The notes beneath the pieces were generated by a model, which saw nothing but the letters and a program-made list of their open reading frames with translations, did not search any database and was not told the DNA's origin. Positions 54,087-57,060 of a stretch of 64,000 bases of DNA are shown in pieces. Origin of the DNA: Lyngbya aestuarii BL J (lineage in GTDB: Bacteria; Cyanobacteriota; Cyanobacteriia; Cyanobacteriales; Microcoleaceae); the NCBI RefSeq assembly GCF_000478195.2, contig NZ_AUZM01000029.1, positions 1 through 64,000 on the forward strand. The letters run 5' to 3'. Numbering within the stretch: the first letter of the stretch is position 1; every line of letters begins with the position of its first letter. The translations under genes and the position numbers were made by a program.

Positions 54087-54869
54087 ATGTCTAATCAAGG
54101 TTCAGTCTGGCGTTTTATCCCATTTATTAAGGCTTCAGGACATCTTCAAATGGCGATTGATGCTTGGTTACTCGAACAACACCGCCTGGGAAAACATCCC
54201 CCCACCTTGCGGTTTTATACCTGGGAACCTGTGGCAATCTCTCTCGGCTATCATCAACGCCGTTGGCCAGAATCTTGGCAAAACTTAATGTGGCGAGGAC
54301 AATCTGTAGATTTGGTGCGCCGTCCTAGCGGGGGAAGGGCAGTGCTACATCAAGGGGATTTAACTTATGCGGTGGTGACTTCAGGACTCTCTGAGAGCCG
54401 TCTGGAAGCCTATCAAACGGTTTGTCAGTTTTTGATTGAGGGGTGGGGTCAACTGGGGTTTAAACTTGATTACGGTTCAGCAGGACGAGGCTACATTCAC
54501 AATCCTAATTGTTTTGGAACAGCAACAGGTGCAGATTTAATTTTATCCGATGGTTCTAAGTTAATTGGTAGCGCTCAACTCCGACGGGATAAAACAATTT
54601 TACAACACGGTTCTATGCGGTTATATCCTGATATTGAACTGCATCAACAGGTGTTTGGGATGATAGCTTTGCCTTCTATTCTACAACGGTTTAATCAGAA
54701 CTCCAGTGGTGAATCAGAAACTCTATGCTCTGAGGTTCAAAATCGGATAATCACTGCTTTAGTTCAAGCAGCTTGTCAATGTTTTCAAATACAGTTAAAT
54801 ACTGAACCTCTATCTGATCACGAATGGCAAGCGATTCAAGCCAACTCAGCCCAATTTTCTGTTTTGTAA
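54087..54869 (+). CDS. Lipoate-protein ligase family (LplA/LipB/BirA fold)
   Basis: 260 aa. The biotin/lipoate transferase fold is shown by the RRPSGGRAVLHQGDLTYAVV block (the lipoyl/biotinyl-AMP loop) and KLIGSAQLRRDKTILQHGSM, which contains the conserved Lys. LRFYTWEPVAISLGYHQ is the usual N-terminal strand. Members attach lipoate or octanoate to E2 and glycine-cleavage H proteins. Whether this one is a free-lipoate ligase or an octanoyl transferase cannot be told. Located 98 bases after the YbjN gene. Confidence 0.8.
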   Translation: MSNQGSVWRFIPFIKASGHLQMAIDAWLLEQHRLGKHPPTLRFYTWEPVAISLGYHQRRWPESWQNLMWRGQSVDLVRRPSGGRAVLHQGDLTYAVVTSGLSESRLEAYQTVCQFLIEGWGQLGFKLDYGSAGRGYIHNPNCFGTATGADLILSDGSKLIGSAQLRRDKTILQHGSMRLYPDIELHQQVFGMIALPSILQRFNQNSSGESETLCSEVQNRIITALVQAACQCFQIQLNTEPLSDHEWQAIQANSAQFSVL

Positions 54870-54919
54870 ATTTAAAAAAAGTTGCAAACCTCAATATTTT
54901 ATGCTAGCCTATAGATAAA

Positions 54920-54966
54920 TATTGCCTAAATCAAAGAGCGAGAACTCTCACAAGAAATAGGCAATA
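54920..54966 (+). promoter_or_regulatory. 9-bp inverted repeat before the tandem RNA genes
   Basis: TATTGCCTA (54920-54928) and TAGGCAATA (54958-54966) are perfect inverted copies with an inner AGAG/CTCT pairing. They end eight bases before the -10 box at 54974. This could be an operator or an attenuating hairpin after the ligase gene; no U tract follows. Confidence 0.45.
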
Positions 54967-54973
54967 AAGGGGA

Positions 54974-54979
54974 TATAAT
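54974..54979 (+). promoter_or_regulatory. -10 box of tandem RNA unit A
   Basis: A consensus TATAAT ends 11 bases before unit A, so transcription would begin at or within a few bases of the unit's 5' end. The -35 is weak. The same TATAATCA string recurs at 55175-55182 ahead of unit B. Confidence 0.55.
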
Positions 54980-54990
54980 CAACTAATATC

Positions 54991-55172
54991 GTTCACTACC
55001 TCAGACTGTTCTGATCGAGGATTGCGCCTCGCCTTGGAGTGGTTAAGAGAAGGAAGCGATAAAAACTTCTCAACGAAATTAGCTTCTTATTATTTGTACC
55101 GTCTTTTCACCTGTCAATTCGCTCTCCTTCGGTGAAAAGCAATGAGTCACAACAGCAAAACCCTCATCCGGT
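54991..55172 (+). ncRNA. Tandem structured RNA, unit A
   Basis: 182 nt, nearly identical to unit B apart from a few clustered changes. Predicted hairpins: an outer CACT/AGTG stem with inner TCAGA-CTGT-TCTGA (55001-55014) and CGAGG/CCTCG; GAGAAG/CTTCTC; a perfect 9-bp CTTTTCACC/GGTGAAAAG stem (55103-55111, 55131-55139); and ATGAG/CTCAT at the 3' end. There is no open frame of note. Not recognised as any named cyanobacterial RNA. It could alternatively be a cis element, but no gene starts within 450 bases. Confidence 0.65.
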
Positions 55173-55220
55173 GCTATAATCAGTTACACTTAAGTAACGT
55201 GAAAGGGAAGGATTAACGCC

Positions 55221-55401
55221 GTCCACTACCTCGGGCCGTTCTGATCGAGGATTGCGCCTCGCCTTGGAGTGGTTAAGAGAAGGAAGCGATAAAAACTTCT
55301 CAACGGACTAGCCTTCTATTATTTGTACCGTCTTTTCACCTGTCAATTCGCTCTCCTTCGGTGAAAAGCAATGAGTCACAACAGCAAAACCCTCATCCGG
55401 T
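55221..55401 (+). ncRNA. Tandem structured RNA, unit B
   Basis: 181 nt, second copy 230 bases downstream of unit A. The hairpin at unit A's TCAGA-CTGT-TCTGA reads TCGGG-CCGT-TCTGA here, with both A-to-G changes converting A-U to G-U pairs, so the stem is preserved. CCACT (55223-55227) pairs AGTGG (55268-55272), CGAGG (55246-55250) pairs CCTCG (55257-55261), and CTTTTCACC (55332-55340) pairs GGTGAAAAG (55360-55368). TATAAT at 55175-55180 lies 40 bases upstream, with about 30 extra bases relative to unit A. Confidence 0.65.
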
Positions 55402-55650
55402 ACGCTTGTTATTCACATTTACTAATATATCAGTCAAACTTGGATAACTCCATCGATCTTTAGAGAGAAACTATTGTGATTGTTTGATCCTTCATTTGAC
55501 ATAGGTAGATGATCTGAAATCCTGAAATGTTTGCGTGACTATGATTGATGGAGACAAAGGCAGACCTTGATTTATTCCTCTTGGCTAGGATCGCATTATT
55601 GTTTCGATTTCAGATAAGATCAAAGAACTTAGTTTGTTCAATGACGAATC
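55402..55650. other. Spacer between tandem RNAs and mnmE
   Basis: About 250 AT-rich bases with no open frame, repeat or convincing terminator. It presumably holds the mnmE promoter. Confidence 0.4.
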
Positions 55651-57060
55651 ATGGCTGAAACCGGATCAGGCGGTGAAACAATTGCAGCGATCGCCACCGC
55701 GATTGTTCCTCAGCAGGGGAGCATCGGAATTGTGCGTCTATCTGGATCTCAAGCCCAAGCGATCGCTAAATTGCTGTTTAATGCCCCCGGACGTCAAGCT
55801 TGGGAAAGTCATCGCATCCTGTACGGCTATATTCGTCATCCTCAGACTCAACAGGTTGTCGATGAAGCCTTGCTGTTGCTGATGCTTGCTCCTCGTTCTT
55901 ACACTCGTGAAGATGTCGTTGAGTTGCACTGTCATGGCGGAATTATCGCTGTTCAGCAGGTACTACAACTCTGTTTAGAAGCCGGAGCGAGACTGGCTCA
56001 ACCCGGTGAATTTACCCTGCGGGCTTTTCTCAATGGCCGAATTGATCTGACCCAAGCTGAAAGTATTGCCGAGTTAGTCGGTTCTCAGTCTCAAGCGGCG
56101 GCTCTTGCTGCCTTAGCTGGATTACAAGGAAAACTCGCCACTCCCATCCGCCAACTCAGGGCTACCTGTTTAGATGTATTAGCGGAAATTGAAGCTCGGA
56201 TCGACTTCGAGGAAGACCTACCGCCACTAAACGTTCCCGATATCATATCACAAGTAAACCAGATTTCTGCGGAATTGTCAATACTAATAGAAACAGCCGA
56301 AAAAGGTGAGCGGTTAAGAAGTGGATTGAAAGTGGCAATTGTCGGGCGTCCAAATGTGGGAAAATCAAGTTTATTAAATGCGTGGAGTCAGAGCGATCGG
56401 GCAATTGTAACAGACCTTCCGGGGACAACTCGGGATGTGGTAGAATCGCAATTAGTCGTGGGTGGAATTCCCGTACAAGTATTAGATACAGCTGGAATTC
56501 GTAACTCCGAAGATCAAGTTGAAAAAATCGGCATAGAGCGATCGCGTAGTGCCGCAAAGTTAGCAGATTTAGTGTTATTAACCATAGATGCCGAAGCAGG
56601 TTGGACAGAAAGCGATCAAGAAATTTATCAACAAGTCAAACACCGCCCTTTGATTTTAATCCTCAACAAAATTGACCGAGTATCTGTCAACGAGTTAGAC
56701 TCAAAAGTTCAGGAAATCCTCGCAAAACTGAACCGAGAAAATTTATTAACAGTTCAAACCGCAGCCGCTTTAAATCAAGGAATTTCAGAACTTGAAACTA
56801 CAATTTTAACCGCCATTAACGCCGGAAATCTTCAAGCCGAAAACCTAGATATTGCCATCAACCAACGTCAAGCATCTGTGATTACTCGAGCAAAAATAGC
56901 CTTAGACCAAATGAAAACCACCATTGACAATCAACTTCCTTTAGATTTTTGGACCATTGATCTGCGAGATGCCGTTCAAGCGTTAGGAGAAGTCACCGGA
57001 GAAGAAGTCACCGAATCGGTTTTAGATCGAATATTCAGTCGATTTTGTATTGGCAAGTAA
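55651..57060 (+). CDS. mnmE: tRNA modification GTPase MnmE
   Basis: 469 aa, full length. The N-terminal formyl-THF-binding TrmE domain (1-120), a helical domain and an inserted G domain (P-loop [27 protein letters not shown]) are followed by the C-terminal FCIGK motif with the catalytic Cys. With MnmG it installs carboxymethylaminomethyl groups on U34 of tRNAs. ATG 55651 matches the usual N terminus leading into [23 protein letters not shown]. Confidence 0.97.

Follow-up and report, generated by a model that had tools for sequence, protein, structure and literature searches.

The window analyzed here is a stretch of 64,000 nucleotides of Lyngbya aestuarii BL J (contig NZ_AUZM01000029.1, positions 1 to 64,000). 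Two open reading frames (ORFs) on its plus strand, 54087 to 54869 and 55651 to 57060, which are probably lipoate ligase-like and mnmE-like, as in the initial annotation, enclose two similar noncoding elements in tandem. The initial annotation had described a pair of structured RNAs that encode no protein, and this holds: the copies are spaced 229 to 230 bases start to start, are 89% and 91% identical over 113 and 98 ungapped bases, respectively, and contain no listed ORF of at least 40 amino acids. It had recognized no named RNA family, but the Rfam scan that it proposed identified one. CyVA-1 (RF02965), a family reportedly defined by Weinberg and others in 2017 in “224 candidate structured RNAs,” has a match on the minus strand in each copy, over the full model length and with scores far above the Rfam gathering cutoff of 41.4 bits. 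Relative to the two flanking ORFs, the RNAs are in antisense orientation. The remaining half of copy B gave a weak, subthreshold CyVA-1 match (19.3 bits, E of 0.27, positions 55216 to 55309), which was the first sign of two related modules per copy. The features of the locus are listed below, where K1 denotes the helix between loop L2 of module 1 and loop L3 of module 2, K2 denotes that between L3 of module 1 and L2 of module 2, and the suffixes a and b mark modules 1 and 2.

55219 to 55403, minus strand: copy B, entire bipartite RNA (alignment row 1; CyVA-1 match and second module)
55325 to 55403, minus strand: copy B module 1 (Rfam CyVA-1, 82.4 bits), with P1a, P2a, and P3a
55219 to 55306, minus strand: copy B module 2 (subthreshold CyVA-1 match, covariation), with P1b, P2b, P3b, and P4b
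55380 to 55385, minus strand: copy B L2a, 5′ side of K1, GCUGUU
55235 to 55240, minus strand: copy B L3b, 3′ side of K1, AACGGC (AACAGU in copy A, pairing kept)
55348 to 55352, minus strand: copy B L3a, 5′ side of K2, AGCGA
55285 to 55289, minus strand: copy B L2b, 3′ side of K2, UCGCU
55424 to 55432, minus strand: extended −10-like box TGATATATT, which ends 20 bases before the P1 of copy B
54989 to 55174, minus strand: copy A, complete bipartite RNA (alignment row 2), without promoter-like box
55096 to 55174, minus strand: copy A module 1 (Rfam CyVA-1, 79.0 bits)
54989 to 55076, minus strand: copy A module 2 (alignment row 2)

The claim that three substitutions between the copies all preserve pairing needs to be corrected. 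Two differences in K1 (AACGGC to AACAGU, both of which pair with GCUGUU) and one in P1b (C-G to U-A) do keep the pairs, but copy A also has one mismatched pair each in P1a and P3b; the remaining differences are located at unpaired positions. All named helices are intact in copy B, and the sixth, uncounted K2 position is A·A in both copies. The invariant 9-bp stem noted near the plus-strand 3′ end is P3a, which is indeed unchanged between the copies. Two copies alone are nevertheless poor evidence of structural selection, since some of the changes break pairs, and it was the covariation in 49 homologous elements described below that bore out a selected, structured, noncoding RNA in tandem. Folding energy was unremarkable (z of −0.13 on the minus and −0.43 on the plus strand); the evidence for structure is covariation and not folding energy.

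Transcription of two RNAs from the plus strand, each out of a TATAAT promoter of its own, as the initial annotation had it, is highly improbable. Complementary stems are present on both strands and a TATAAT does start at position 54974 of the plus strand, but the second one, at 55175, is situated about 40 bases before copy B, which has no close TATAAT on this strand. The CyVA-1 model and the homologues place both copies on the minus strand, and the TCAGA/TCTGA hairpin, which had been cited as structural evidence, forms in copy B only via two G-U pairs on the plus strand; read on the minus strand, these are two A·C mismatches, so that the hairpin is not kept there. A stretch of copy B, AAGGCUAGUCCGUU, resembles part of a Cas9 tracrRNA; this likeness was judged to be chance because the stretch extends across the variable linker and is not the same in copy A.

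Architecture of the bipartite RNA

A second homologous three-way-junction module was located downstream of the CyVA-1 match in 75 of 77 cyanobacterial places. In the remaining two, the second module was incomplete near a contig end (L092) or absent (L143). The latter place (L041/L143), on a Lyngbya confervoides contig labeled as a plasmid, contains module 1 but no recognizable module 2 in the 330 bases downstream. These numbers derive from 79 extracted places, of which a weak match that was not an element (L141), an acidobacterial sequence (L145), L143, and L092 were left out to give the 75; the extracted set was without several other places, many of genus g11, without the second copy of genome G085, and without the match in G864 below the cutoff. 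The placement script for module 2 reports a best candidate in every case; the 75 placements were accepted because the P2b loop was visible in their rows, with L080 as the worst. A second CyVA-1 match with an E value of ≤0.001 occurred in nine places of other genomes. The full RNA is about 185 nt long and about twice as long as the catalogued CyVA-1; the Rfam entry is module 1 only, and module 2 is absent from Rfam at the curated cutoff.

Classified by the length of the linker, the 75 elements comprise 49 of the short form, which is that of the window, and 26 of the long form. RNAalifold found P1a, P2a, P3a, P2b, P3b, and P4b in the 49 short-linker elements unaided. The full structure of 51 pairs, which also includes P1b and the two pseudoknots, was paired in 93.6% of the cells of these 49 elements compared to 79.0% after shuffling, with a covariation of 0.530 compared to 0.240 in the shuffled and 0.109 to 0.132 in the slid alignments, whereby the shuffles ignore the relatedness of the elements. 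P1b is a weak helix (76.0% paired). The stems were kept across the homologues, and 43 pairs were changed on both sides.

Both loop-loop helices connect one module with the other. K1 was 93.2% paired with five of its six pairs changed on both sides, and K2 was 96.7% paired with two of five. Together, they were paired to 94.8% in the 49 elements, compared to 89.7% after shuffling (none of 500 shuffles as high) and 28.9% to 47.9% when slid; 7 of the 11 pairs were changed on both sides, a number reached in 2 of 500 shuffles, and covariation was 0.268 compared to 0.169. In one of the five measures used, further pair types, 36 of 500 shuffles matched the result. As a matched control, which carries the same relatedness as the test of K1 and K2, L2 was paired with the L3 of its own module. 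This alternative was rejected for the bipartite RNA because it reached 82.0% compared to 82.4% in the shuffled data, with 496 of 500 shuffles as high and a single pair changed on both sides.

In the combined short- and long-linker alignment of 75 rows, which contains 68 distinct loop sets, shuffling of the partners yielded z values of 8.9 and 10.4 for the pairings between the modules and of 0.2 and −2.6 for those within a module. Helices of at least 6 bp were possible between the modules in 51 and 63 of the 68 loop sets and within a module in 33 and 20 of them. Exceptions were L055 and L053, with two and four of the six K1 pairs kept, and L048, with three of the five K2 pairs kept. The possibility that L2a pairs with the 3′ strand of P1a and thereby acts as a switch was dropped because no covariation was seen by eye. 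The architecture as a bipartite RNA with intermodule pairing is well supported, and it is covariation that shows both modules as well as K1 and K2.

Single modules and a possible origin of the fused form

CyVA-1 was also matched in Acidobacteria, in 35 of the 150 genomes surrounding an acidobacterial genome (34 of them over the cutoff) and in 3 of 347 genomes drawn across the phylum. Of 35 acidobacterial RNAs examined, 32 were of a single-module type and 3 were bipartite. The downstream sequence was read for 22 of the 32 single modules, with L190 to L198 left out, and the regular expression used had missed two of the three bipartite RNAs, so that a few of the 32 may hide a second module. In 22 aligned single-module rows, L2 and L3 of the same RNA were complementary, with 99.2% of the cells paired, and four of six pairs were changed on both sides; covariation thus shows L2-L3 complementarity in the single modules, too. 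The K sequences of the bipartite acidobacterial RNAs, as read by eye, are UAGUUC/GAACUA with GUCGUU/AACGGC in L199 and GUUGUU/AACAAC with GCCGUC/GACGGC in L200 and L202.

Pattern scans of viral contigs yielded 17 single modules, 10 of them distinct (L169 and L210 to L225). All 17 contained six L2-L3 Watson-Crick pairs, with patterns that left two positions free on each loop side. One of these modules, L214:3583-3632, is located between a head protein-like ORF and the next ORF; another example is L218:1752-1802, and L169 carries its single module directly before a small ORF. A run of T residues follows the closing stem in L214, L218, and L221, as in a terminator. A protein encoded beside L214 weakly matched a major head protein, and one near L221 matched an integrase, which would fit phages; 6 of the 10 proteins tested had no match in PHROGs. 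The latter also applied to the product of the gene that follows the viral RNA in L218 (L218:1897-2349), which we assume from a YHAT..GL motif to be ADP-ribosyltransferase-like.

Because Acidobacteria and viral contigs contain a one-module form whose L2 and L3 are complementary to each other, the bipartite form is most simply explained as a tandem-fused dimer. An ancestral single module would have formed a symmetric homodimer by way of two L2-L3 kissing helices, as the present single modules may still do rather than pairing in cis. The bipartite cyanobacterial RNA would be the tandem fusion of this dimer, with K1 and K2 clamping both modules reciprocally within one chain. That the window contains a minus-strand tandem of ~185-nt two-module RNAs with reciprocal loop-loop helices, most simply a fused homodimer, is on balance probable. 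For the homodimer ancestor as such, the chances appear to be even, since both pairings would be possible after a duplication and single modules could pair in cis.

The single module may instead pair its L2 with its L3 in cis, in which case the exchange of partners in the bipartite form would be a historical accident. This is a serious competitor to which we assign somewhat less than an even chance. P2 and P3 are neighbors in the three-way junction, and purine riboswitches pair L2 with L3 in cis. Right after a duplication, either pairing would be possible, and drift from a cis-folded ancestor could exchange one for the other. In every bipartite form with loops that were read, however, the partners are exchanged, although the pairing is weakened in some, and this includes the three acidobacterial ones with their quite different K sequences.

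Distribution, transcription, and genomic neighbors

CyVA-1 was present in 59 of 148 relatives and in 29 of 386 genomes across the cyanobacterial phylum. A search among the relatives of another genome, G767, returned G767 itself alone (1 of 147), and the named loci L035 and L039 were judged by eye to be chance matches. Among the literature matches listed for CyVA-1 or RF02965, nothing was found beyond one article, which reports the RNA at low abundance in halite cyanobacteria (PMC7002113). A blastn search of plasmid and phage records yielded no match, at a sensitivity able to miss distant relatives.

The initial annotation had set a mobile repeat against its own proposal. A mobile or decaying MITE-like repeat without function was already disfavored and is scarcely credible. 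It would be in agreement with the tandem copies in the window and, judged by position, in G486, G225, and G085 (the second G085 copy below the cutoff), with the patchy presence across relatives and phylum, and with the copy without module 2 on the plasmid-labeled contig. The genome of L. aestuarii BL J, however, contains just three elements in 6.9 Mb, the third one at G000:C104:3190, and the loop pattern of module 2 is confined to these three in this genome. No inverted repeats were found in 54500 to 55700, and stems are conserved, with covariation, across genera and in two phyla.

Genome comparison shows a promoter-like box upstream of the RNA. A TAnnnT motif started at positions −32 to −21 in 35 of the 49 short-linker elements, compared to a mean of 14.5 and a maximum of 24 in 300 mononucleotide shuffles. 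The box was missing in copy A, in the second G486 copy, and in both G225 copies. Terminator-like hairpins occurred downstream of 24 of the 75 elements and of 49 of 375 shuffled sequences, with none after either window copy. Both window copies may be transcribed from the promoter-like box of copy B, which would result in one four-module transcript or in read-through.

Clustering of the ORFs within 6 kb of 56 loci yielded as the largest cluster a protein of ~230 amino acids, which was present in 20 loci and always encoded upstream on the strand of the RNA. About six membrane helices are likely in this protein, as judged by its hydropathy and a weak AlphaFold2 model. The model, obtained from two sequences, had a mean pLDDT of 54.2 and was too weak for a fold search. 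Two members of the family had no match over the cutoff in Pfam, one member had none in NCBIfam, and a PDB profile search gave no solved relatives. Genome comparison also shows adjacency and co-occurrence of this membrane-protein family with the cyanobacterial RNA. The gene was located upstream on the same strand within 2.5 kb at 22 of the 26 long-linker loci (L071, which was scored as lacking it, starts near a contig end) but at 3 of the 49 short-linker loci, at a distance of 1.8 kb in one case, and the window locus is without it. Of the 148 genomes, 48 contained both RNA and protein, 11 the RNA alone, 9 the protein alone, and 80 neither, numbers that are uncorrected for relatedness; a hand tally by genus gave 20, 8, 7, and 30, respectively (P = 3.3e−5). 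Many families in a tree of 48 proteins contained the linked state, for which five changes were needed. No diverged CyVA-1 was found beside the unlinked protein copies in 20 loci, and the protein was not found in 46 stretches, which were those of acidobacterial RNAs plus three others and mostly covered a few kilobases.

In L. aestuarii BL J itself, a ~230-amino-acid multispanning membrane protein with a conserved QWDM motif near its end is encoded upstream of the third CyVA-1 element (L045:2375-3064, contig C104). A HEARO RNA (RF02033, 101.1 bits), truncated at the beginning of its contig, is present at L170:1-151 in the relative G002, about 2.7 kb from the membrane-protein gene of this genome.

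Possible function and known systems

By analogy with OLE RNA, CyVA-1 might be a structural RNA that acts in trans and forms a particle, in cyanobacteria together with the membrane protein. Such an RNA would be the rigid scaffold of an RNA-protein particle. This assignment is tentative and clearly below an even chance, although it is favored over a base-pairing small RNA and over a ligand-binding RNA. The complete scenario of a homodimer in Acidobacteria and phages that turned into a fused heterodimer by duplication and into a membrane-particle RNA in cyanobacteria, with four modules in the window, is rather unlikely to be correct in all its parts.

As an ordinary trans-acting small RNA, CyVA-1 would pair its conserved single strands with mRNAs or the ribosome, and the kissing helices would just stabilize it. 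The Rfam type of CyVA-1 is sRNA, the promoter-like box and the stand-alone position agree with this function, and loop stretches outside K1 and K2 are conserved, for instance AAGGAG in L3a, which looks like a Shine-Dalgarno sequence. The most variable yet paired loop positions, however, are those occupied by K1 and K2, and we regard an ordinary small RNA as unlikely. Mimicry of a Shine-Dalgarno sequence was rejected, because AAGGAG is not conserved in Acidobacteria; many of the acidobacterial rows have GAAGCGG or GAAGCCG instead.

A tandem ligand-binding RNA, an aptamer pair acting in cis or in trans, is decidedly improbable. The tandem glycine riboswitch consists of two homologous three-way-junction domains in tandem and has single-domain relatives, which resembles the pair of homologous three-way junctions and the single-module forms found here, and the module directly before the small ORF of viral contig L169 would also suit a riboswitch. 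The window RNA, in contrast, is antisense to both flanking ORFs, gave no match to an Rfam riboswitch anywhere in the window, and has no expression platform that could be seen. Among the largest ORF clusters, there was no other recurring downstream family beyond close relatives.

CyVA-1, hitherto catalogued without a function, is thereby extended by the half that the catalogue lacks, by a testable tertiary structure, by a protein as its candidate partner, and by related modules on viral contigs. Since single and double versions exist, it may serve as a model for the step from an RNA homodimer to a fused two-domain RNA. This step is familiar for proteins but, to our knowledge, seldom documented for a natural RNA.

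The Rfam model of CyVA-1 covers one module in 77 positions without loop-loop pairs, whereas the RNA described here is bipartite with kissing loops. In ROOL and GOLLD, RNA units are reported to be joined by kissing loops as well, with intermolecular contacts that covary (PMC12286853). Those RNAs build large multiunit cages, while CyVA-1 is small with two modules per chain. The closest functional parallel may be the OLE RNA of Bacillota, which is reported to form an RNA dimer (PMC12286853) and to be encoded beside the gene of its binding partner, the membrane protein OapA (PMC12265935). OLE is about 600 nt long, whereas two modules are fused in one RNA here, and the OLE model gave no match in the window, up to an E value of 5 in 54600 to 55700. 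CyVA-1 is therefore not an OLE RNA, although it perhaps works alike. The adjacency of the ~230-amino-acid protein concerns those 22 long-linker loci and not that of the window, and its RNA binding is putative; if the membrane protein is its partner, CyVA-1 would join OLE among the bacterial RNAs that are associated with a membrane.
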